Below, piece after piece: positions 12,304-64,000 of a DNA stretch of 64,000 bases. This stretch comes from Daphnia pulex (lineage: Eukaryota > Arthropoda > Branchiopoda > Diplostraca > Daphniidae). The translations under genes were made by a program, and so were the position numbers. A model generated the notes under the pieces. That model had not been told where the DNA came from. It saw nothing but the letters and a program-made list of their open reading frames with translations, and did not search any database. Numbering within the stretch: position 1 is the first letter of the stretch; each line of letters opens with the position of its first letter. The stretch spans positions 744,001-808,000 of the forward strand of contig NC_060021.1 of NCBI RefSeq assembly GCF_021134715.1. The letters are read 5' to 3'.

Positions 12304-12375
12304 TCCTCGATAGTATAGTGGTGAGTATCCCCGCCTGTCACGCGGGAGACCGGGGTTCAATTCCCCGTCGGGGAG
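12304..12375 (+). tRNA. tRNA-Asp (GTC)
   Basis: A 72-nt cloverleaf: acceptor TCCTCGA pairs with TCGGGGA, followed by discriminator G at 12375. The anticodon arm CCCGC-CTGTCAC-GCGGG gives anticodon GTC (Asp), and the T arm is CCGGG-GTTCAAT-TCCCCG-like with an intact B box. A T run (TTTCTTTTT) follows within about 10 bases as pol III terminator. The CCA is absent from the gene, as in eukaryotic nuclear tRNAs. Confidence 0.95.
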
Positions 12376-12579: not shown

Positions 12580-12651
12580 TCCTCGATAGTATAGTGGTCA
12601 GTATCCCCGCCTGTCACGCGGGAGACCGGGGTTCAATTCCCCGTCGGGGAG
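12580..12651 (+). tRNA. tRNA-Asp (GTC), second copy
   Basis: Same 72-nt tRNA as the copy 276 bp upstream, differing by one D-arm base (GTGGTC here, GTGGTG in the first copy). Acceptor, anticodon (GTC) and T arms are identical. A TCTTTTTT tract follows as terminator. Flanking sequences do not match, so only the tRNA is conserved, not a longer duplicated block. Confidence 0.95.
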
Positions 12652-28969: not shown

Positions 28970-30511
28970 ATGATTCTGCCTTACCCTTAATCATAAGGTA
29001 ACATTTAATTTCAATTAGCAATTTAGCTACTGCTTGATTGACCACGTTCATTTCTGAGCCTTCTCTGTTGTTTTCCAGACGTTTGAGCAGTGCTAGGAAA
29101 GTGCTGTAAGAAAAAATATCCATTCGATGAGGCAAACCTCCAAGTTATTCGGAAAATTTTTAAATTGATCAAAACAAAATCACCGGGAAAAGAGGAACGA
29201 ACTATAACTATACGGTACTTTAATTAAATAATTTGTTCTTTCTTTCGCAATCTTACCAATTTGGTTTGTACGATGGGCTAGAATTCAAATCAAATAAACG
29301 GAAATCAAATGCAATGTTCAGCCAGTTGGTTGTTGGACGATATTATTGTACTGCGAGGACGTGTCACACAAAGATGGCATCCCCGTTCATCCCTGACTCC
29401 GAGAAAGTTTGCATCATCCATTCGAATTAACGTTCCATCGACACGGAAGTGGAGGACTGAAGGTCAAGAAACAAGAATATCGATAACTCGTCTCAAATGT
29501 AGAATTTTTTCGGTCCGCAATTTCCTTATCAACAGTCTCCATCAAAAGTAAGTCTACTAGTCTTCTTCATTTGTTTATTAAATTATTATATTCTGTCAAA
29601 TTCAAAAGAAAATTTCATAATCTTGAACTTGATTAATAATTTTAAATATTCGACGCAGCGATCGTCATTCTTGCTTGTTCTATTTGTTATCGAAAGAATT
29701 GACGTATAGAAACACTTCATGGCCACAAGTTAGCAAAAATAACATCGCAAAATCTGCACGTCACACCTGTTAATACCTGTTAACATTCACCGCATTCCCA
29801 TGAATACGTACGTACACGCAGATTCTTACTGCACAGGTGAGGTCAAGTGATGACGCAACTAATGAATTCTCAATTGCACCTTTAGAAATTCGTCCGATGG
29901 AAATGCTTCCATTATACACCAAACTGCACTCGTTGTACGAAACTGCCGTAAATAAAAAGGTGGGAGCTCAAAGTTCGTTTCTGAAGAGCCGCACGCTATC
30001 ATCGCCGTTTGCGTCATCAGCGCACTCCAAGTTAAAGCTATTGCAGGTATAAACAATACATTTAATCATGTCGTTAGTAATTAGAATATGTTAGTCAGAA
30101 CTATAATGAGTAGGCTTAGCGGTAAAAGTAGGCCTAATTTGATCATTTTCGATCATTTCAAGAAAAAAGGAAATCAGAAGATTTTTTAATAGGGAAGTTA
30201 AAAACCAAACGCCGTTTTTGTTTGCCATGCCATAACCATTTCGACCGCTTATAAGGGATAGATATCATAAAGCTTTATTATGATTATTGTTCGACTTCGA
30301 ACATGTGAAATAAGAGACTACTTCCTTTCGTATCAGTTTTAATCCTATGTTACTGCAGTATATACTACAGAATAGTTATCGTGCATCGTACTCGAGCTGA
30401 TGTTGCCACAGCATGTTGCAGCAAGCGAGAATTATAATAATCGTATTGCTTTCAAATGATAAGCACTGGGTCATATCTGGTGACAGTTGTACAGCTCGCA
30501 TAAACAGCATG
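28970..30511 (+). other. Unassigned region with two exon-like open segments
   Basis: Two segments have coding character. One is about 29309-29546 (WLLDDIIVLRGRVTQRW ... basic), ending at a GTAAGT donor. The other is 29837-30049, bounded by TTACTGCACAG and LKLLQ|GTATAA, with APLEIRPMEMLPLYTKLHSL in frame. Neither matches a family I know and no terminal exon was found before the deaminase gene at 30614. They may be remnants of a gene, possibly the missing downstream half of the 17-20 kb gene, but I cannot align them. Confidence 0.25.
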
Positions 30512-30548
30512 TATATAAACAGGAGTCTGCTGGAATCCAAAAATCAGT
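30512..30548 (+). promoter_or_regulatory. Core promoter (TATA + TCAGT initiator) of the ADGF/ADA2 gene
   Basis: TATATAAA (30512-30519) is followed by ATCAGTCG, whose arthropod initiator TCAGT is at 30544-30548. The spacing (about 32 bases from TATAAA to the initiator A at 30546) is right for pol II. The ATG lies about 68 nt further on. Confidence 0.7.
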
Positions 30549-30613
30549 CGCTTGTTCACAGGTCGTCGGGACGGGTTGAGCGTTCGTTATTGTCGACCGA
30601 CAAAATTAACAAA

Positions 30614-33005
<2,392 letters not shown>

Positions 33006-35512: not shown

Positions 35513-35585
35513 GGTCTCATGGCTTAGATGGCAAAGCGCCTGCCTAGTAAGCAGGAGATCACGAGTTCGAGTCTCGTTGGGACCT
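35513..35585 (+). tRNA. tRNA-Thr (AGT)
   Basis: 73-nt cloverleaf: acceptor GGTCTCA pairs with TGGGACC (one G-T pair), discriminator T. A box TGGCTTAGATGG, anticodon arm CCTGC-CTAGTAA-GCAGG giving AGT (read as IGU, Thr), B box GAGTTCGAGTC. It sits between the divergent starts of TTLL1 and AP3D1. The downstream T tract is weak (AAATTTTTAATTT). Confidence 0.93.
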
Positions 35586-49691: not shown

Positions 49692-50081
49692 CATCGGAGT
49701 ATGTTATGTGAGTGACCCCGCAATTTTTCTCATATATGCCTTGCTTTTATTCTTTTAATTTGTCCTTTTCTCAGGTGTAATTTGTAAGTGTCATTTTTAT
49801 ACCTTATCGCTCCCTTGCAGTTCTAAATCATATATCTTTTTGGAGAGTTATAACTTCTAACATTTGGAATTATATTTTTTGCATCAGCCATCAGAGCCAT
49901 CAAGTTGCATGTTAGAAGTTTGTTTTAAGTGTAACTCAGTTTCTAATTCTTGATCCTTCCATTAATTTTCCCATACATTCATGCTACATGAAATCTATTA
50001 TCATTTTTCTTACTTGTATTGACTGTTTTTTTTTCTTGTGGTTAAGGTAAAAATCAGATAACTGGCCAAACCATTTGAAGG

Positions 50082-53000
50082 ATGGGAAGTTTTGAAGATG
50101 TTATGCCTCGGGGAGCATCACACAATATGCCTGGTGTCTTGGAAAATGGTCTTGTTCCCTATGTCCAAAGCACTGGAGTTGACAAAGAACGCCTGTTCAA
50201 AGCTGTTAATCTTCAGAAAAAAGGTGCTGAAGTTGACTTTGCAAATGGGGAAAAACTGTTTTTCGATAGAACTACCTCAAATCCTCTAAAAGTTGACAAA
50301 CTTGGAGACATTCCAATTCCAGTTTCTGTTAAGGTATTGATTACTGATTCAAAAACTATTATGGTAATTGTGTTAATAATTCAAATTGGAACAGGATATT
50401 CAAAGGCTTAAGGAAAAATCTGATTTAGGACTGTATGGAAAAGGATTAAATAGCTTTTACGACTCCTCAAAAAGATTGGCCTTACAAATTGATGCTTCAA
50501 AACTAACCTCAACTATTATCGATGATCTCAACTTGCTGTCAATGGTTATGCGTCATCTAGACCTGCCTTCTGATTTGATGAATGTTCAAGCAAATCTTCA
50601 CCAATTGATTTTATATGAATCAGATGGCCATTACCAGTGTACCTCAGAGTCAGAGAAAGAATATGGTATGTAGATATCATGCTTATGTTTTATAAAACGA
50701 TTGATTTCATTTCCATTTGACGGTTTAGGTTCGTTTGGCACTACTGTTCTTCAGTTACCCGTGGAAGGTGGTCATGAAGGTGGACGTTTCAAAGTGCAGT
50801 ATCGAGGAGAAGAACAAGTGTTTGACAATCATCAAGACAGCGATCGATGTTTTTACGCATCGTCTTTTTATGGAAATTGTCAGCATTCAATGGAACCCAT
50901 AACAAAAGGAGCAAAATTGACGTTAGTCTTTGATCTTGTTTGGACAAATGCCAAGAATATAATTCCGCAAGATTTCCCTGTCTTTCTTACCGCCTTGAAG
51001 GATATTAAAGAATCTCTCCCAACTTGGATTCGTAATCGAAGAGGTCATAAACAAAACAAAAATCCCAGAAATGACACGTTGCCAAACGACGCGGACGCAT
51101 CATTTACTTTTGAAGCCTTAACAGTCGCTTGGTCGTCTGAAAATCATTCAACCGAAAAACTTGATTCAAATTCTTTGCTGTTGGAAGCTGAAGAAAACAC
51201 TTCTGAAATTGTAAGCACGGAAGGTGCTACCTCTAAATTGTCCGAAAATTGTAATGATAATCATCACGACCAAACTCAACAGCAAACATCGTTGGGCGTA
51301 TCGATTCAGGATGGTGTATGCAACACGGGAGTAAATGCTTGTAACGAGGATCAAGACGAAAATCAAGACGAGGAAGATTCTGAAGTGAATGAAGTCGGGA
51401 CTTTCAAAGAAAATGTTTTGTACTTTGTTCTCGAAGGAAAATATGTCGAAGATGATTTCACGTTTCGTCGACTCCAAAGAAAAGATCGGGAATTGGCGCA
51501 ACTTCTTCAATGTTGTGGTTTTCTCGACACACATTTAGCTGTGGTTACCAAAACCGTTTCCACAACTCGCACTGACTATGATCCGTATGATTCATGTGGA
51601 TGTAGGGACGACTCTGATCACGAGAAAAGAAAATCTACCACCAAAATTTCGCGATGGATAGACTCAAAAGATGTTTCCAAGAAATTGAGCATGGATTTAA
51701 ATTGGAAGAAGCAGTGTGTTGGACCTCTTAGAAACTTGCCTACATCAGACAGCGAAATAACTGACTCGGAGGATGAATTTGGAGGATGTGGTTATTGGAA
51801 TACGACCACTACTGAAGAACATTCATACTATTTTGTATTGGTTATTTGGCCTAAGCATCAATCGGTTCAAATGTATTGTCGCTATGGTCTTCACGCACTT
51901 CTAGAACACATGGAAGTTAAAAGTTCGTCAACTAGTTGGCTTAAGAAAAACCAACAGAATGCTACTGAGAATTTACGAACGATCATTTCTTTTTGCTCCG
52001 CTGATCCTTGGAAGGTGTGGACCCAAACAAGATTAGCAAAAGGTGAATTGACTCAAAGATTGCTTCGTCTTTGTATTGTTTTTCGAGCGCGTGAGGAAGG
52101 TCTCAGTCTCTTGAAGATTATTGCATCCGATTTTCCCTTGCCACAAGATCGAGTCAGCAGCATGCAAGGAACTTTTGAAGGTATCCAAACAGAACAAGTT
52201 GCTAAGGCGATTGCTGAGTTGGAATGTCTAGTCATTGGTAAGATTAATTCCCTATTCTTCATGACTTTTGTTCTATCTTATTACTTTTGTTTAATTACTT
52301 ACTGTTTGTAATAGGTTGGAAGGATTCCGCTGATCTAATTCAGAAAATGATTTCTCCTGATCGAATCGTCCAGCAGCTGGTACCGATAATCAGTTTAGCT
52401 CAGCACTTGTTGAACTTTCATTGCTTAGAGGGAGCGGTATTAGTTGGAGATCGCATTTTGTCCTCATTGATCAACTTTAACAAGCAGCAGACCCAGAGGT
52501 TAAAACAATCGGAAATCCAAAGTTACGTTGAGTTTATGATTTCGTTGGAAGAAAATGCCAAGACTGCAAATCCTCAGAGAGCCAAGTCGTTTACAACTCT
52601 ATTCTCAAAACTGGAATCCTCAATTCAGTGCAACCTGGTTCTGGAGATGGAAGCTCAAGTTCGTTCACGGTTCAAGAACTCGGTATCTTGCAACAACATG
52701 TTCCAGGAATTGTGCAAAGCCCTGCCTCTTTGTGATCTTCGTTCTCCGTTTATTAAGGAGAATGCGATAGTTGAGTTGATGTGCTGTTACTTCAGGATTG
52801 GAAACGAAGAATTGCTTCAGACTCTGATATCTAAAATTTTCCACGTTCCAGCCAACCCTGGAGAAAACAATTCTCTTTCTTCGGAGGAAGTTTTGAAAAA
52901 AGTTATTTCATCCCCACTAATATTGGAATTGGCGTTATCTTCTGAAATAGGCCTGTCTGTTGTGCTATCGCTAGTTGATAAACAGCTAATTTCTATAACG

Positions 53001-54593
53001 ATCCAGCTCCAACAAATTCTTCGAGATAAGGCTCAGTCGCCAGCAAACGTTAATAGATTGTACCAGCGGAGCGAAAGTCAACTACTCCTTAGTTTATCGT
53101 CCTGTCTTCGAATTGTAATTCGCGTAGAAAAGAATTCCAGCAACTACACTGCGCAACGATCGTCGTCAATTTCATCACTGCTGTCGAAGCTGAGTGTCCA
53201 GCAGCTAACCACCGTCTTGAATGATATATTTAAATCAAGCTCCAGACATTTGAAAAAACTTTCGTCAACCGCCACAATTATTCGTCAAATTTGCGATCTC
53301 CTGATTTCGCGATTGAATGCAAAAACGTCTTTTATGCTTAGCAAAAGCACTATTCTTCAGACGGTAAAGGCCTTAATTGAGGTGAACGACGAGTCACTTA
53401 CACAAACTTTGTTCAAGCAATTTTGCGAAAAGGATGGAATAGGAATATGGAGCAAACAAAACAAATCTGGCTTATTCCGCGATATTCTTTCTTCCCCTGA
53501 CGTGTGGGGGAAATTGGATTCCACATCAAGGCAGCTAATCATGAAATCCTGTGCTTCGCTTATACATTCTCGGATTGCGGAAATTATCAAATCTCTGAAT
53601 TCCCTTACTGGATCTACTACCACCCAAAACCAATCTTTACGGAAACTAGTGATCGAAGGCATAGTCGAATGTGTTCAACTTTTCTTTTGGGGAGAGAAGA
53701 ACAGATTTGATTTAGAACAAAAGATCACCGCCGAAGCCTTTCAACCACTTATCATGAAACTAAATTCTTCTGTACTTTTGGAACTTGTATTGCAGCTCTA
53801 CAAATCGGAGTCTGATGCCCGTCCCAACATCAAGAAATTTCCCATCTGCATGGATTGGTATCGCACCATATGCAGAATCTTGTTCACTGTGGAGTTTGTG
53901 TCGCTTGTCAACTTTGAAGTAGCAACCCGCATCGTTAATTGCCTCTTGTGGCTTGAAGATGAAGAATCTTGGAAACAGTTCACACAGAGTGTTTGCAAAA
54001 ATTTTCTTTCATGGCGAGGCAATCTTTTTGTGCAAATCTTGTTGAAGGATCTTTCTATCCAGCGAGCACTTAAAGATTTCGCTCCTGCTTTTGCTGCTTT
54101 CGTGCACATCGTAGACCACTGGGCTCAGCGCACCGAAAAGCTGAAAGAACCGGCATTTAGCTGGCAGCAGTCCAAAGCCGTTGTACCGAATTATCCTGAA
54201 GTCCAAGCCTTTCTTCGTTCACCTCAAGAGTCTATGGCCTACATGAAATTTGGTGGAATTGCCGAGGCTCGTCGTTTGGCCAACAGTCTTAATGCCCTGG
54301 GACAGTCTAACAATTTCAGTGTTTCAGTTACTACGTCTGGAAGTGGAAAAAATTCTCGGTGTGACATTGTGAAAAATCGAAATCACTTTGAACGCAGAGC
54401 ACGAGATTTTTTTAGCAGGAAAGCTGAATTGATTGAATTGGTAAAACTTCGTAACCGCCTCGGACAAGAAATTGCTCAAGCGGAACAATTGGCTGCTGCG
54501 ATTTCTTCAACACCAATTATAACTGACGAGGTCTGTGTCGTCCCTCCACCTAAGCGTCCCAAGCTCGACATACCTGTAATTGAACTCGAATGA
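50082..54593 (+). CDS. Large 2OG-oxygenase-fold protein, tandem copy 1 (probable pseudoenzyme)
   Basis: Exons 50082-50333, 50395-50665, 50729-52237 and 52315-54593 give 1,436 aa. Residues about 150-245 resemble the prolyl-4-hydroxylase-like 2OG/Fe(II) fold seen in large uncharacterised eukaryotic proteins: ANLHQLILYESDGHY, SFGTTVLQLPVEGGHEGGRF and CQHSMEPITKGAKLTLVFDL. The distal His (H227) and a Lys ten residues later (K237; collagen P4Hs also use Lys) are kept. Where an HxD pair is expected (GHYQCTSESEKEYGSFGT, residues 162-179), no such pair exists (T-S-E instead), so iron binding is doubtful. An acidic Glu/Asp/Gln linker (about 420-435) follows, then a second half of about 800 residues, Leu/Ser-rich and apparently helical, with no known domain. 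The C-terminus PPPKRPKLDIPVIELE is an NLS-like basic motif. Its polyadenylation signal is AATAAA at 54689. Confidence 0.85.
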
Positions 54594-54688
54594 AGACATG
54601 TTTTGTGTTGTTTTATTTTTTTTTAACTAAGAATTCTTGTTTGATTTCATCAGCCATTCAGTTTTAACTCAGAATGTATTTTTGTTTG

Positions 54689-54694
54689 AATAAA
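54689..54694 (+). terminator. Polyadenylation signal, tandem copy 1
   Basis: AATAAA about 95 nt after the stop, conserved in position and context in copy 2. Confidence 0.7.
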
Positions 54695-54916
54695 AACTTC
54701 ACTCGTTGTCTTTTCTAAATCTTTTCTATTGTTTTAATTTTTAGCTGTTGGATGTCGTGAAACAAACCCCGTATTTCTTTCTGGATTATATGTCGAAAGC
54801 ATTATTTCCTTGCTCGAAGCAGCGACGTTTAGTAATTCACATTAAGGGGAAAGTTTATTTTCTGTTTGGAGGAGAGATTTAACGGTTGGGTTTCTACTAA
54901 TTTACGGACGTACGTA

Positions 54917-55026
54917 CCTAACTGGGAGCTGGTACATCTAGCGGGAACGATGCGAATGGCATATCGAGCTCGACTGCTCGAGTTTGCAAACTCTTAGCGC
55001 TAGATGCGCCACCTACCAGTTATAGG
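54917..55026. repeat. Foldback inverted repeat in the spacer after copy 1
   Basis: CCTAACTGG (54917-54925) pairs with CCAGTTATAGG (55016-55026). Further in, CATCTAGCG (54934-54942) pairs with CGCTAGATG, and the centre contains CGAGCTCG and CTCGAG. The same 110-bp structure recurs after copy 2, so it belongs to the ancestral unit. It could be an old MITE, a hairpin or a regulatory palindrome. Confidence 0.65.
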
Positions 55027-55561
55027 TTGATCGGAGGGAATGAGTAGCAAAAGGCCTAGGATTTTAATGGCTTAGAATGACTATGGTTGGTTGGAACTTG
55101 CCAACTTGGAACTCGCTAGTGTCGCTACTTCACTAGGGAACAGGCTATGGATTGAGTGGGTGACTGGGTTACCCCGCCATTTTTCTCACGTATGCCGTGC
55201 TTTTATTTATTTATTTTTTTTTTAAATTTGTGTCCTTTCTCAATTGTAATTTGTAAGTGTAATTTTTAAACTTAATCGCTCCCTTGCATTTATAAATCAT
55301 CTACTCTCTTTGGAGAGAAGCTGGACGGATTTGAAATTATATTTTTTGCATGAAGCCATCATTGCTATCAGGTTGCATGTTAGAAGATTATTTTAGATGT
55401 GTAACCAGTGTAACTCAGTTTCTAATTCTTGATCCTTCCATTAATTTTCCCATACATTCATGCTACATGAAATTTATTACCCTTTTTCTTACTTGTATTG
55501 AGTGTTAGTTTTTTCTTGTGGTTTAGGTAAAAATCAGATCACTGGCCAAACCACTTGAAAG

Positions 55562-58500
55562 ATGGGAAATTTTGAAGATGTTATGACTCGTGGAGCATCC
55601 CACAATCTGCCTGTTGTCTTGGAAAATGGTTTTGTTCCCCCCGTCCAAAGCACTGGAGTTGACAAAGAACGCCTGTTCAAAGCTGTTAATCTTCGAAAAA
55701 AAGGTGCTGAAGTTGACTTTGCATTTGGGGAAAAATTGTTTCTTGATAGAACTACCTTAAATCCTCTAACAATTGACAAACTTGGAGACATTCCAGTACC
55801 ACTATCTGTTAAGGTATTCAACACTGATTCAATAACTATTATGGAAAATGTGTTAATCACTTATATTGGAACGTTCAGGATATTCAAAAGGTTAAAGAAA
55901 TATCTGAATTAGGACTGTATGGAAAAGGATTAAATAGGTTTTTTGACTCCTCAAAAATATTGGCCTTTCAAATTGATTCTTCAAAACTAACCTCAACTAT
56001 TATCGATGATCTCAACTTGCTGTCATTAGTCATGCATCATCTAGACCTGCCTTCTGATTTGATGAATGTTCAAGCAAATCTTCACCAATTGATTTTATAT
56101 GAATCAGATGGCCATTACCAGTGTACCTCAGAGTCAGAGAAAGAATATGGTATGTAGATATCATGCTTATGTTTTATAACGCGATTGATTTCATTTCCAT
56201 TTCACGGTTAAGGTTCGTTCGGCACTACTGTTCTTCAGTTACCCGTGGAAGGTGGTCATGAAGGTGGACGTTTCAAAGTGCAGTATCGAGGAGAAGAACA
56301 AGTGTTTGACAATCATCAAGACAGCGATCGATGTTTTTACGCATCGTCTTTTTATGGAAATTGTCAGCATTCAATGGAACCCATAACAAAAGGGTCAAAA
56401 TTGACGTTAGTCTTTGATCTTGTTTGGGCAAATGCCGAAAATATAGTTCCGCAAGATTTCCCTGTGTTTCTTACCGCCCTGAAGGATATTAAAGGATCTC
56501 TTCCAACTTGGATTCGTAATCGAAAAGATGATAACCAAAACAAGAATCCCACAAATCACACGTTGACAAACGAGGCAGATGCATCATTCGCTTTCGAAGC
56601 CCTTGCAGTCGTGTGGTCGTCCGAAAATCATTCAAACGAAAAACCCGATTCAAATTCTTCGCTGTTGGAAGCTGAAGAAAATACTTCTGAAATTGGAAGC
56701 ACGGAAGGTGCTACCTCTAAATTGTCCGAAGATTTTAATGATAATCATCACGACCAAACTCAACGCCAAACACCGTTGGACGTGTCGATTCAGGATGGTG
56801 CATGCACGATGGGAGGAAATGCTTGTAACGAGAATCAAGACAAGGATCAAGACGAGGATCAAGACGAGGATCAAGACGAGGATCAAGACGAGGATCAAGA
56901 CGAGGAGCAAGACGAGGAGCAAGACGAGGAAGATTCTACGGAAGAGTATGAAGTCGGGACTTTCGAAGAAAATGTTTTGTACTTTGTTCTTGAAGGAAAA
57001 TATGTCGAAGATGACTTCACGTTTCTTCGACTCAAAGGAAAAGATCGGGAATTGGCGCAACTTCTTCAATGTTGTGGTTTTCTCGACACACATTTAGCCG
57101 TGGTAACCAAAACCGTTTCAACAACTCGCGGTGAATATGATCCGTATTATTCGCGTAAAAGGCATAACTACTGTGATCACGAGAAAACAAAATCTACCAC
57201 CAAAATTTCGCGATGGATAGACTCGAAAAATATTTCCAAGAAATTGATTATGGATTTAAATTGGATGAAGCAGTGTGTTGGACCTCTTAGAAACTTGCCT
57301 ACATCAGACAGCAGAACAACCGGAACAACTGACTCGGAGGATGAATGCGATGACTGTGATGACTGTGGAGGGTGTGATAGTTGGAATACTACTGAAGAAC
57401 ATTCCCACTATTTTATATTGGTTATTTGGCCTAAGCATCAATCGGTTCAGATGTATTGTCGCTATGGTCTTCACTTACTACTAGACAACATTGAAATCAA
57501 AAGTTCTTCAACTAGATGGCTTACGAAAAACAAACAGAAGGCAACTGAGAGTTTACGAACGATCATTTCTTTTTGCTTCGCCGAACCTTGGAAATTGTGG
57601 ACCCTAACAATATTAGCAAAAGGTGAATTGACTCGAAGATTGCTTCGTCTTTGTATTGTTTTACGAGCGCGTGAGGAAGGTCTCAGTCTCCTGAAGATTA
57701 TTGCTTCCGATTTTTCCTTGCCACCAGAAAGAGTCAGCAGCATGCAAGGAACTTTTGAAGGGATCCAAACAGAACAAGTTGCTAAGGCGATCGCTGAATT
57801 TGAATGTCTAGTCATTGGCAAGTTTAATTCCCTATCCTTCATCTTTTTACTTTTTTTAAATTATTTATTGTTTGTAATAGGTTGGAAAGAATCCGCTGAT
57901 CTAATTCAGAAAATGATTTCTCCTGATCGAATCGCCCAGCAGCTGGTACCGATAATCAGTTTATCTCAGCACTTGTTGAACTTCCATTGCTTAGAAGGAG
58001 CGGTATTAGTTGCAGATCGCATTTCTTCCTCATTGACAAACTTAAACAAGCAACAAGCCCAGAGGTTAAAACAATCGGAAATCCAAAGTTACGTTGAGTT
58101 CATGATTTCGTTGGAAGAAAATGACAAGACTGCAAATCCTCAGAGAGCCAAGTCGCTTACAACTCTGTTCTCAAAACTGGAATCCTCAATTCAGTGCAAC
58201 CTGGTTCTGGAGTTAGAAGCTCAAGTTAGTTCGCGGTTCAAGAACTTGGACTCTTGCAACAACATGTTCCAGGAATTGTGCAAAGCCCTGCCTCTTTGTG
58301 ATCTTCGTTCCCCGTCGATCAAGGAGAAGGTGATAGTTGACTTGGTGTGTTTTTACTTTAGGATTGGAAACGAAGAATTGCTTCAAACTTTGATATCCAA
58401 CGTTTTCCACGTTCCATCCACCCCTGGAGGAAACAAATTGAATTCTTCGGAGGAAGCATTGGAAAAGATTATTTCATCCCCACTAATATTGGAATTGGCT

Positions 58501-60183
58501 TTATCTTCTGAAATGGGCGTGTCTGCTGTGCTAACGCTAGTTGATAAACAGCTAATTTCCTTAACGAACCAGCTTTCGAAGATTCTTCAAGACGAGGCTC
58601 AGCCATCTTCGTACCTGAATAGATACCAGCCGTCATATTTCAATCTTATGTACCAGCGGAACGAAACTCAACTGCTGCTTAGTTTATCGTCCTGTCTTCG
58701 AATTGTAATTCGCGTAGAAAAAAATTCCAGCAACTACACTGCGCAACGATCGTCGTCAATTTCATCACTTCTGTCGAAGCTGAGCGTCCAGCAGCTAACC
58801 ACCGTCTTGAATGACATTTTAAAATCAAGTTCCAGGCATTTGAAAAAACATTCGTCAGCCGCAACAATTATTCACCAAATTAGCGTTTTCCTGATTTCGC
58901 GATTGAATGAAACCAACACTGCTGTGCTTAGCAGAAGCACTATTCTACAGTCGATAAAGGCTGTAATTGAGCTTGATGATGAATCACTTACACGAACTTT
59001 GTTCCAGCAATTTTGCGAAAAGGAAGGAAGTGGATCACGGAGCAAACAAAACAAATCCGGTTTACTCCGCGATATTCTTTCTTCTCCTGACATGTGGGGA
59101 AAATTGGATTCTTCATCAAGGCAGATAATCATGGATGCTTGTGCTTCGCTCGTTAATTCGTGGATCGCGGAAATATCCCAATCTCTGAATTCCCTCATTG
59201 AATCGACTACCACCCTTATCAATGCTCCACCGAAACTACTGACCGAAAGCATAGTCGAATGTGTGCAACTGTTCTTTCTGGGAGAGAAGAACAGATTTGA
59301 TTTAGAACACAAGATCACCGCCGAAGCCTTTCAACCACTCATCTTCAAACTAAATGCTTCTCAACTCTTGGATCTTGTATTGCAGCTCTACAAATCGGAG
59401 TTCGATGCCCGTCCCAACATCAAGAAATTTCCCATCTGCATGGATTGGTATCGCACCATATGCAGAATCTTGTTTACTATGGAGTTTGTGTCGCTTGTCA
59501 ACTTGGACGTAGCAACCAACATTGTTAATTGCCTCTTGTGGCTTGAAGATGAAGAGTCTTGGAAATATTTCACACAGAGTGTTTGCAGACATTTTCAATC
59601 GTCTCGAGGCAATCTTTTTTTGCAAATCTTCTTAAAGGATATTCCTATCCAGGGAGCTCTTAAAGCTTTTGCTCCCGCTTTTGCTGCTTTCGTGCACATC
59701 GTGGACCACTGGGCTCAGCATTCCGTGAATCTGAAGGAACCGACATTCAGCTGGCAGCAGTCCAAAGCCGTTGTACCGAATTATCCTGAAGTCCAAGTCT
59801 TTCTTCGTTCACCTAAAGAGTCTATGACCTTCATGAAATTTAATGGAATTGCCGAGGCTCGTCGTTTGGCCGACAGTCTTCATGCCATGGGGCAGTCTAA
59901 CAATTTCAGTGTTTCAGTTACTACGTCTGGAAGTGGAAAAAATTCTCGGTGTTACATTAAGAAAAATCGAAATTACTGTGAACGCTCAAGACTAAATTTT
60001 TTTAAGATGAAAACTGAATTGATTGAATTGATAAAGCTTCGTAACCGCCTCGGCCAAGAAATTGCTCAAGCGGAACAATTGGCTGCTGCGATTTCTTCAA
60101 CACCAGTTGCGACTGACGAGGTCTGCGTCGTCCCTCCACCTAAGCGTCCCAAGCTCGACATACCTGTAATTGAACTGGAATGA
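55562..60183 (+). CDS. Large 2OG-oxygenase-fold protein, tandem copy 2 (probable pseudoenzyme)
   Basis: Exons 55562-55813, 55879-56149, 56213-57817 and 57881-60183 give 1,476 aa. It has the same architecture as copy 1: MGNFEDVMTRGASHN start, degenerate iron site (HYQCTSESEKEYG again), NCQHSMEPITKGSKL, long helical C-terminal half and PPPKRPKLDIPVIELE end. It differs by an expanded QDED repeat (residues about 380-415) and by inserted Cys/Asp-rich segments (DECDDCDDCGGCDSW). It also differs at the third intron (57818-57880, 63 bp), which begins GC rather than GT and has no stop in frame. Retention would add 21 hydrophobic residues (KFNSLSFIFLLFLNYLLFVI-type). Reading frame is intact throughout, arguing for selection rather than decay. 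Confidence 0.85.
56833..56931 (+). repeat. In-frame 12-bp minisatellite encoding QDED/QDEE
   Basis: About eight units of GATCAAGACGAG and variants (GAGCAAGACGAG). Copies 1 and 3 have only about two units (near 51350 and 62387). Every length change is a multiple of 12, so the frame is kept. It encodes a strongly acidic, probably disordered linker. Confidence 0.9.
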
Positions 60184-60278
60184 AGACATGTTATGTGTTG
60201 TTTAATTTGTTTCTAATTAAGAACTCTTGCTTGATTTCATCAGCCATTCAGTTTTAACTCAGAATGTATTTTTGTTTG

Positions 60279-60284
60279 AATAAA
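60279..60284 (+). terminator. Polyadenylation signal, tandem copy 2
   Basis: AATAAA in the same context (TTTTTGTTTGAATAAAAAC) and at about the same distance from the stop as in copy 1. Confidence 0.7.
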
Positions 60285-60670
60285 AACATCACCCGTTGTC
60301 TTTTCTAAATCTTTTCCATTGTTTTAATTTTTAGCTGGTTGATGTGATGTAAACAAACCCCGTATTTCTTTCTGGATTATATGTCGAAAGTATTCTTTCC
60401 TTGCTCGAAGCAGCGACGTTTAGTATTTACTTAAATGGGAAGTTTGTTTGTTTGGAGGAGAGATTTAACGTTAGGCTACTTATTTACGGACGAACTGCAC
60501 TAATATAAGGGTTTAAAAATAGTCACACTATTACACTTACCGTAGAATTATCGAATACCGGTTGCGATTGGGTCATATCATAAAACAATATTTATATCAA
60601 GGAAAACATTTTGTTTGCTTGGAGGAGAGATTTAAATTAACGTTTGGGTTTCTACTAATTTACGGACGTA

Positions 60671-60784
60671 CCTAACTGGGAGCAGAGCTGGTACATCTAG
60701 CGGCAACGGTGCGAATGGCATATCGAGCTCGACTAGTCGAGTTTGCAAACGCTAGCGCTAGATGCGCCACCTACCAGTTATAGG
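60671..60784. repeat. Foldback inverted repeat in the spacer after copy 2
   Basis: CCTAACTGG (60671-60679) and CCAGTTATAGG (60774-60784) with inner CATCTAGCG/CGCTAGATG arms, the counterpart of 54917-55026. The centre differs (GACTAGTCGA here, GACTGCTCGA there), yet the palindromic character is retained. Confidence 0.65.
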
Positions 60785-61121
60785 TTGATCGGGAGGGAAT
60801 GAGTAGCAAAAGGCCTAGGATTAAGTAGCCAGTAGCCACAGCTATGGTGTGCCGTTTGTGCCGTTTGGAGAGTAGTTATAACATTTGAAATAAATTTTAT
60901 TGCATCAACCATCAGTTCCATCACCCATCAGAGCCATTTCAGGTTGCATGTTAGAAGCTTTTTAGAAGTGTAACTCAGTTTTTTATTCTTGATCCTTCCA
61001 TTAATTTTCCCATAAAAATTTCATTCATGCAATATGAAATTTATTATAATTTTTCTTACTTGTACTTACTGTTTTTTTTTCTTATGGTTTAGTTAAAAAT
61101 CAGATCACTGGCACTTGGAGG

Positions 61122-64000
61122 ATGGCATATTTTGAAGATATTGTGCATCAGGGAGCATCACACACGCCTGGTGTCTTGGAAAATGGTTTTGTTCCTCTTG
61201 TCATTAGCACTGGAATTGACAAAGAACGCCTGTTCAAAGCTGTCAATCTTCGAAAAAAAGGTGCTGAAGTTGACTTTGCATTTGGGGAAAAACTGTTTCT
61301 TGATAGAACTACCTCAAATCCTTTAAAAGTTGACAAACTTGGATACATCCAAATTCCAGTTTCTGTTAAGGTATTGAATACTGATTCAAAAACTATTATG
61401 GTAATTGTGTTGATAATTTAATTGGAACAGGATATTCAAAGGCTTAAGGAAAAATCTGAATTAGGACTGTATGGAAAAGGATTAAACAGCTTTTTCGACT
61501 CCTCAAAAAGATTGGCCTTACAAATGAATGCTTCAAAACTAACCTCAACTATTATCAATGATCTCAAGTTGCTGTCAATGGTTATGCACCATCTAGACCT
61601 GCCTTCTGATTTGATGAATGTTCAAGCAAATCTTCACCAGTTGATTTTATATGAATCAGATGGCCATTACCAGCGTATCTCGGAGTCGCAGAAAGAATTT
61701 GGTATATAAATTTTATGTTTATGCTTTATAACGCGATTGATTTCATTTCCATTTGACGGTTTAGGTTCGTTTGGTACTCTTATTCTTCAGGTACCCGTGG
61801 AAGGTGGTCATGAAGGTGGACGTTTCAAAGTTCAGTATCGAGGAAAAGAGCAAGTGTTTGACAATCATCAAGACAGCGATCGATGTTTTTACGCATCGTT
61901 GTTTTATGGAAATTGTCAGCATTTAATGGAACCCATAACAAAAGGAGTAAAATTGACGTTAGTCTTTGATCTTGTTTGGACAAATGCCAAGATTATAGTT
62001 CCGCAAGATTTCACTGTCTTTCTTACCGCTCTGAAGAATATTAAAGGATCTCTTCCAACTTGGATTAATAATCGAAACGGTGATAAACAAAACAAGAATT
62101 CCAGAAATGAAATGTTGCCAAACGACCCGGACGTATCATTCACTTCTGAAGCTCTGACAGTCGCCGCATGGTCGTCTGAAAATCATTCAACCGAAAAACT
62201 TGATTCAAATTCTTTGCTGTTGGAAGCTGAAGAAAATACTTCTGAAATTGGAAGCACGGAAGGTGCTACCTCTAAATTGTCCGAAAATTGTAATGATAAT
62301 CATCACGACCAAATTCAACAGCAAACATCGTTGGGCGTATCGATTCAGGATGGTGTATGCACCACGGGAGTAAATGCTTGTAACGAGGATCAAGACGAAA
62401 ATCAAGACGAGGAAGATTCTGAAGTGAATGAAGTCGGGACTTTTGAAGAAAATGTTTTGTTTTTTGTTCTCGAAGAAAAGTATGTCGAAGATGACTTCAC
62501 GTTTCGTCGACTCCAAAGAAAAGATCAGGAATTGGCGCAACTTCTGCAATGTTGTGGTTTCCTCGACACACATTTAGCTGTGGTTACCAAAACCGTTTCC
62601 ATAACTCGCACTAATTGCAGATGCATTTGCGACTGTGATTACGAGGAAAGAAAATCTACCACCAAAATTTCGCGATGGATAGACTCAAAAGATGTATCAA
62701 AGAAATTGAGCATGGATTTAAATTGGAAGAATCAGTGTGTTGGACCTCTTAGAAACTTGTCTACATCAGACAGTGAAATAACTGACACGGAGGATGAATG
62801 TGATTGTGGAGGATGTGATTATTGTAAACCGACCACTTATGAAAAACATTCATACTATTTTATATTGGTCATTTGGCCTAAGCATCAATCGGGTCAGATG
62901 TATTTTCGCTATGGTCTTCACGTACTAATAGAAAAAATGGAAGTTAAGAGTTCTTCAACTAGTTGGCTCAAGAAAAACCAACAGAATGCTACTGAGAGTT
63001 TACGAACGATCATTTCTTTTTGCTCCGCTGATCCTTGGAAGGTGTGGACCCAAACAATATTAGCAAAAGGTGAATTGACTCGAAGATTGCTTCGTCTTTG
63101 TATTGTTTTACGAGCGCGTGAGGAAGGTCTCAGTCTTCTGAAGATTATTGCTTCCGATTATCCCTTGCCACAAGAACGAGTCAGCAGCATGCAAAGAACT
63201 TTTGAAGGGATCCAAACAGAACAAGTTTCTAAGGCGATCGCTGAGTTGGAATGTCTAGTCATTGGTAAGTTTAATTCCCTATCGTTCATCTTATTACTTT
63301 TGTTTAATTACTTATTGTTTTTAATAGGTTGGAAGGACTCCGCTGATATAATTCAGAAAATGATTTCTCCTGATCGAATCGTCCAGCAGCTGGTACCAAT
63401 AATCAGTTTAGCTCAGCACTTGTTGAACTTTCATTGCTTAGAGGGAGCGGTATTAGTTGGAGATCGCATTTTGTCCTCATTGATCAACTTCAACAAGCAG
63501 CAGACCCAGAGGTTAAAACAATCGGAAATCCAAAGTTACGTTGAGTTCATAATTTCGCTGGAAGAAAATGCCAAGACTGCAAACCCCCTGAGACCCAAGT
63601 CGTTTACAACTCTGTTCTCAAAACTGAAATCCTCAATTCAGTGCAACCTGGTTCTGGAGTTAGAAGCTCAAGTTAGTTCGCGGTTCAAGAACTTGGATTC
63701 TTGTAACAACATGTTCCAGGAATTGTGCAAAGCCCTGCCTCTTTGTGATCTTCGTTCCTCGTCGATCAAGGGGAATGTGATAGTTGACTTGATATGCTGT
63801 TACTTTAGGATTGGAAACGAAGAATTGCTTCAGACTCTGATATCTAAAATTTTCCACGTTCCAGCCAACCCTGGAGAAAATCAATCTCGTTCTTCGGAGA
63901 AAGCATTGGAAAAGGTTATTTCATCCCCACTAATATTGGAATTGGCTTTATCTTCTGAAATAGGCCTGTCAGTTGTGCTATCGCTAGTTGATAAACAGCT
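61122..64000 (+). CDS. Large 2OG-oxygenase-fold protein, tandem copy 3 (3' end outside the window)
   Basis: Exons 61122-61370, 61431-61701, 61765-63264 and 63328 to beyond 64000 stay open to the edge. The N-terminus MAYFEDIVHQGASH is one codon shorter in exon 1 than in the other copies. The expected iron-site region reads GHYQRISESQKEFGSFGT, again without HxD, while CQHLMEPITKGVKL keeps His and Lys. The acidic linker has the short form of copy 1 (NEDQDENQDEEDSEVNEVG). The segment after TKTVS is shortened and Cys-rich (TNCRCICDCDYEERKS). The third intron uses a normal GTAAGT donor but, as in copy 2, is 63 bp and stop-free. Its C-terminal part cannot be assessed. Confidence 0.8.

Follow-up and report, generated by a model that had tools for sequence, protein, structure and literature searches.

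Three tandem Daphnia pulex genes encode oxygenase-derived proteins that lack the first iron-binding histidine

Introduction

What becomes of an oxygenase domain whose metal site is no longer complete? The question is raised by three tandem genes, c1 (50082..54593), c2 (55562..60183) and c3 (61122..64000 and on past the window end), all on the + strand of a 64,000-nucleotide stretch of Daphnia pulex DNA. This stretch, hereafter the window, is C5:744001-808000 (contig NC_060021.1) of a 13-contig genome of 133,188,837 bases, and positions are window positions unless a contig is named. An initial annotation had read the three genes as a lineage-expanded family with a 2-oxoglutarate (2OG) oxygenase fold and no His-x-Asp (H-x-D) iron pair. 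Pseudo-oxygenases have been studied less than pseudokinases. A literature search gave no paper on this family among the matches listed, and the 2OG family named in the available part of a Daphnia gene-family study is JMJD4-like (PMC12102780). On balance, we favor the reading that the genes belong to a lineage-expanded pseudo-oxygenase, in which a prolyl-hydroxylase-like, double-stranded beta-helix domain that has lost the first iron His and exchanged the Asp for Glu is joined to a helical half and a basic tail.

Results

The ancestry of the domain was examined by sequence, profile and structure comparison. In a tblastn search, the c1 domain matched bacterial genes in 22 of 72,556 plasmid records (E 1e-16 to 1e-6), mostly annotated as 2OG-Fe(II) oxygenases, and the paralogue C11:825k matched bacterial oxygenase genes at 7e-17. 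Profile-profile comparison of eight own with six bacterial sequences gave 99.9% (E 2.3e-32), and the reverse search with the bacterial domain returned 41 matches in the D. pulex genome, all within this family's places. Foldseek structure comparison assigned the domain of the window genes to the double-stranded beta-helix fold; among the fold matches was 4uwd, by its title a PHD2 D315E variant with Mn(II). The tblastn matches, the profile-profile comparison and the fold matches together support the oxygenase ancestry and fold claimed at the outset. The PF13640 cut-off was passed by all three bacterial homologues scanned, while no match over it was obtained in the first 452 amino acids (aa) of c1, the c2 frame, C11:825k or C12:1921k, and none of the four places over cut-off in the genome belongs to the pseudo-oxygenase family. 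A sequence search of the PDB gave only weak matches (E 0.59, 0.8 and 0.21), an NCBIfam scan of the C11:825k protein gave no match, and nothing was found with the own-family profile A1 in genome_contigs or viral_contigs, nor with A2 in viral_contigs. A motif pattern matched a single stretch of viral_contigs, L059.

Alignment with the bacterial homologues then located the metal site. Where the aligned homologues read H-x-D-[TS]-E-K, c1 and c2 read TSE (residues 167-169; 50641..50649 and 56125..56133, + strand) and c3 reads ISE (residues 166-168; 61677..61685, + strand), in the contexts GHYQC-TSE-SEKEYG|SFGT (c1 and c2) and GHYQR-ISE-SQKEFG|SFGT (c3). In the alignment, T or I stands opposite the first metal His and E opposite the Asp, so the former is lost and the latter is now Glu. 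The distal His was present at residues 227, 227 and 226 of c1, c2 and c3 (50884..50886, + strand, in c1), and so was a basic 2OG-binding residue on the last strand, Lys 237, 237 and 236 (50914..50916, + strand, in c1), which stands at the position of the bacterial co-substrate Arg. The H-x-D/E...H iron triad of 2OG-Fe(II) oxygenases is therefore incomplete, with the first His absent and the Glu and distal His present. The fold-motif context, distal His and co-substrate-type Lys are retained in all copies, as had been claimed; the claimed absence of the iron pair stands for the first His, which is gone in all three, but not wholly for the Asp, which is conservatively replaced.

The replacement ligands that had been proposed as possible refutation found no support in the alignment, which, not being coordinates, places H190 in the PVEGGHEGG loop and D211/D213 in the HQDSD loop (209-213). 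At H209 of the latter loop, four of six bacterial homologues also carry His, besides their own H-x-D. HLD at c1 138-140 was rejected as the metal pair; it lies where a predicted helix ends, ahead of the strands of the domain.

The site was then compared across bacterial loci, of which 361 were found, 80 retrieved and 77 readable (L110, L114 and L143, with the longest frame unmatched, were left out); the structure alignment comprised 28 of the 77 rows, and the scan patterns exclude the H-x-D stretch, one of them covering the residues that lead up to the distal His. The H, the D and the distal H were present in 77/77 loci, and the co-substrate residue was Arg in 76/77 and Lys in 1/77.

Gene models were built from splice signals and cross-copy comparison, and in all three genes followed a common plan of four exons, of which exon 1 encodes 83-84 aa, exon 2 ends just past the metal-site position and exon 4 is long. 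Copy c1 (exons 50082-50333, 50395-50665, 50729-52237 and 52315-54593), defined by splice signals and an open frame, encodes 1436 aa. Copy c2 (exons 55562-55813, 55879-56149, 56213-57817 and 57881-60183) encodes 1476 aa; its intron 3 has GC-AG ends, and the reading frame is also open across it. Copy c3 (exons 61122-61370, 61431-61701, 61765-63264 and 63328 onward) encodes 897 aa inside the window; followed beyond it, the stop-free frame is 1298 codons, the final 145 aa share 92% identity with c1, and the tail pattern is located at C5:809574. No internal stop occurred in the three models, and the observation of a family of three tandem genes with intact frames is confirmed.

A genome search with c1 gave 79 matches at 45 places (E up to 1, best 1.8e-66), a copy number and spread beyond chance, so that the claimed lineage expansion holds within this genome. 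The core exon was contained in 40 of the 45 places, and five matched exons 1-2 only; four places of the latter kind lie at C5:1339k-1360k and are possibly truncated tandem copies. We aligned 33 of the 40 core places, excluding L008 (a near copy of L007) and the broken or partial L033, L041, L045, L054, L057 and L058. Paralogue exon boundaries were placed by visual inspection of the translations together with the shared phase; the exon 3/4 join of L044 and several starts of exon 2 are uncertain. The aligned H of L023 was scored absent by hand. Only C11:825k carries the full triad (HCD...H...R); three more paralogues keep the first His (C5:1755k, HCE...N; C12:2012k, HRY...L; C12:1921k, HCH...H), and 29 of the 33 have lost it. 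Asp was kept in 5/33, and the distal His was kept in 21/33 and lost in 12/33. At C12:1921k (L056), HCH with the distal His and Arg might form a metal site of three His within this fold.

In a tree with 14 bacterial rows, the 33 paralogues split from the bacteria at 100/100, and a 20-member clade that includes the window genes was recovered at 99/99 with H-x-D in none of its members, which supports the ancestral loss proposed at the outset. In the nearest eight-member clade, T/I/V-x-E...H...K/R was found in 8/8. Deep branches among the own genes were unresolved, and C11:825k has a long branch (best identity 33%), its grouping with bacteria not being rejected (p-AU 0.37). A six-gene sister clade on four chromosomes (C11:181k, 190k and 1704k; C2:10564k; C4:4180k; C10:4425k) has a rewritten metal-site loop. 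Paralogues without the site intron (C10:13386k-13414k, C5:224k, C3:3222k and C7:7465k) are mostly clustered on C10 and perhaps arose by retroposition of one copy and its subsequent duplication. The family presumably has relatives in other animals and fungi.

Selection was assessed by Nei-Gojobori dN/dS from exon 3 onward with codon bootstrap intervals. The values were 0.53 (0.43-0.65) for c1-c2, 0.42 (0.30-0.59) for c1-c3 and 0.54 (0.40-0.74) for c2-c3, at a dS of 0.13-0.18; for the whole coding sequence they were 0.53, 0.48 and 0.55, respectively. All three bootstrap intervals lie below 1, which is not pseudogene-like and upholds the earlier view that the genes are maintained as proteins. Comparison of the window copies with a C5:713k copy gave 0.58-0.67, with intervals reaching 0.89, and values varied per exon (c1-c2 exon 2, 0.87; c1-c3 exon 1, 0.90; few changes). 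The window genes are kept as proteins, yet fast-evolving. Constraint was weaker in the sister clade, where L051-L053 gave 0.95 (0.68-1.39).

Beyond the oxygenase domain, the acidic linker is longer in c2 owing to a 12-bp tandem repeat of 8.6 copies (56828..56930, + strand) that encodes DEDQ-type repeats; no comparable array was reported at the same score in c1 or c3. The C-terminal half contains a helical unit of ~190 aa, which is single in C11:825k, C12:2012k and C12:1921k and repeated in the helical half encoded by c1 exon 4 (52315..54593, + strand), at residues 722-925, 926-1117 and 1118-1288, the middle one being weakly supported. Against the single-unit profile, the first and last units of c1/c2 scored 94.4% and 84.6%, compared with a maximum of 1.0% in 30 column-shuffled first-unit controls; the middle unit scored 44% against the first unit and 3.7% against the single-unit profile.

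By the gene models, both c1 and c2 end in the basic tail PPPKRPKLDIPVIELE followed by the stop (54543..54593 and 60133..60183, + strand). We read 15 own ends (c1, c2 and 13 of 20 loci) against a background of 488 frames, with basic-tail and SUMO-interaction motif (SIM)-like patterns that were both composed after the tails had been inspected. P-x(0-2)-[KR][KR]-x(0-2)-[KR] occurred in the last 30 aa of 11/15 own ends, 0/77 bacteria and 18/488 background frames, so the tail likened earlier to a nuclear localization signal is indeed frequent. A search with the c1/c2 and C10 tail pattern gave four matches, of which only c3 is independent and none is outside the family. The last 12 aa were SIM-like in 5/15 own ends, 1/77 bacteria and 6/488 background frames, namely PVIELE (c1 and c2), PVLDLT (L040) and EIIVISD (L046 and L049). 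The tails of L046 (C5:1214k) and L049 (C5:1174k) finish in EPEIIVISD, SUMO-interaction-like and without a basic stretch. VIDLT is given as the core of the PIAS1 SIM in the available part of its source (PMC3901395), and we would guess that the SIM-like ends may bind SUMO.

Elsewhere in the window, an open frame at 30413-31039 carries an adenosine/AMP deaminase N-terminal domain (PF08451, 1.5e-16), and three tRNA genes lie at 12304-12375, 12580-12651 and 35513-35585.

Discussion

With catalytic residues lost and both fold and protein constraint kept, the window genes have the sequence features of a putative pseudoenzyme. The data show homology to 2OG-Fe(II) oxygenases, a loss at the metal site throughout the 20-member clade, constraint on the window copies as proteins, and the basic tail. 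The domain would then perform no oxidation turnover, and its old cleft may have been kept as a binding surface, as the distal His and Lys/Arg in 8/8 of the nearest clade suggest; the basic tail would direct the protein to the nucleus, and the repeated helical unit could be a protein-binding scaffold. Its target would likely be something that the ancestral enzyme once used as a substrate, or the full-site paralogue C11:825k, as with vaccinia C16 and PHD2. Several observations weigh against this account. The Glu, distal His and Lys are still present in the window copies; AspH is functional with two His, and its single-His variants retain reduced activity, according to the accessible part of that report (PMC13168262); and four own ends have no basic stretch, L046 and L049 ending differently and the frames of L050 and L051 stopping early.

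Among the alternatives, a decaying multigene family, spread by duplication and perhaps retroposition, weakly constrained and mostly functionless, is unlikely: broken or partial copies, copies without the site intron and dN/dS near 1 in some sister-clade pairs fit it, but the window copies retain frame, splice sites and tail at their present dS, with dN/dS intervals below 1. We hold equally tentatively a specific version of the pseudo-oxygenase account, in which binding by the dead copies would inhibit, titrate or scaffold the C11:825k product. C11:825k is the sole paralogue of the 33 with H-x-D...H, and the N-terminal domain of C16 binds PHD2 (PMC9674614, available in part), C16 ranking third in the Foldseek list, though at a root-mean-square deviation (rmsd) of 9.7. 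The interaction is, however, purely proposed, C11:825k is distant from the window genes, and the four other PF13640 places would be equally possible partners. That the proteins are still iron enzymes with altered ligands (Glu, distal His and water), 2OG being held by Lys as in unusual oxygenases, seems improbable. The motif conserved throughout the nearest clade, the AspH precedent and the PHD2 variant among the fold matches speak for it, but the losses of the first His in 29/33 and of the distal His in 12/33 paralogues indicate that the site as a whole is decaying, whereas all 77 bacteria keep both. A long shot is the wider proposal of a tandem-amplified dominant-regulator system with an oxygen/2OG-dependent enzyme as its origin, in which dozens of lineage-specific nuclear pseudo-hydroxylases, some SUMO-tethered by their tails, would bind and control the full-site gene product or its substrates through the dead cleft. 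Finally, that an H-x-D exon was missed or the alignment shifted is scarcely credible, because, although an intron lies a short way 3' of the site (c1 intron 2, 50666..50728, + strand, 63 bases), c1 and its exon join align gap-free through the site with six bacterial proteins, four paralogues without that intron (C5:224k; C10:13386k, 13393k and 13403k) equally lack H-x-D, and C11:825k, which has an intron in that position, reads HCD.

The initial annotation had also proposed an undescribed system, which is too strong, because these genes form a degenerate offshoot of an oxygenase family that is known though uncharacterised, and a full-site paralogue exists in the same genome. That one genome holds a series from a full triad through three partial sites (HCE, HRY and HCH) to 29 genes without the first His, which 77/77 bacteria keep; stepwise loss and replacement of catalysis are therefore directly testable in an animal, and D. 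pulex is an established model.

The closest known systems include bacterial 2OG-Fe(II) oxygenases of ~760 aa (PF13640; for example WP_100923131.1 and WP_225006078.1). Homology of the window genes to them extends across the beta-helix domain and a LEHxYTPAELSFSALKGADA segment, and a C-terminal KNQASYERR segment is recognisable in common. The window genes differ in an added longer helical part and basic tail, and in that a C-x-C-x2-C...H cluster near the bacterial C terminus, each residue of which occurs in 76 or 77 of the 77 bacteria, is missing from c1, c2, C11:825k and C12:2012k; in the bacterial proteins (loci L067-L146), this cluster is a likely second metal site. The paralogue C11:825k (L044; C11:824936-825783) resembles the window genes in intron place and domain order and has a basic tail (LKRVKFNV), but keeps HCD...H...R and has a single helical unit where they have two or three. 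Prolyl hydroxylase structures of the PHD2, P4H and PiuC types share 9-14% identity over the aligned part, and, unlike them, the window genes are without the iron triad. Vaccinia C16 (8ag3) is, in the part of its description available, a PHD2-like domain with unconserved cofactor-binding residues fused to another domain (PMC9674614). It is viral, has a different second domain and serves as a mechanistic precedent only.
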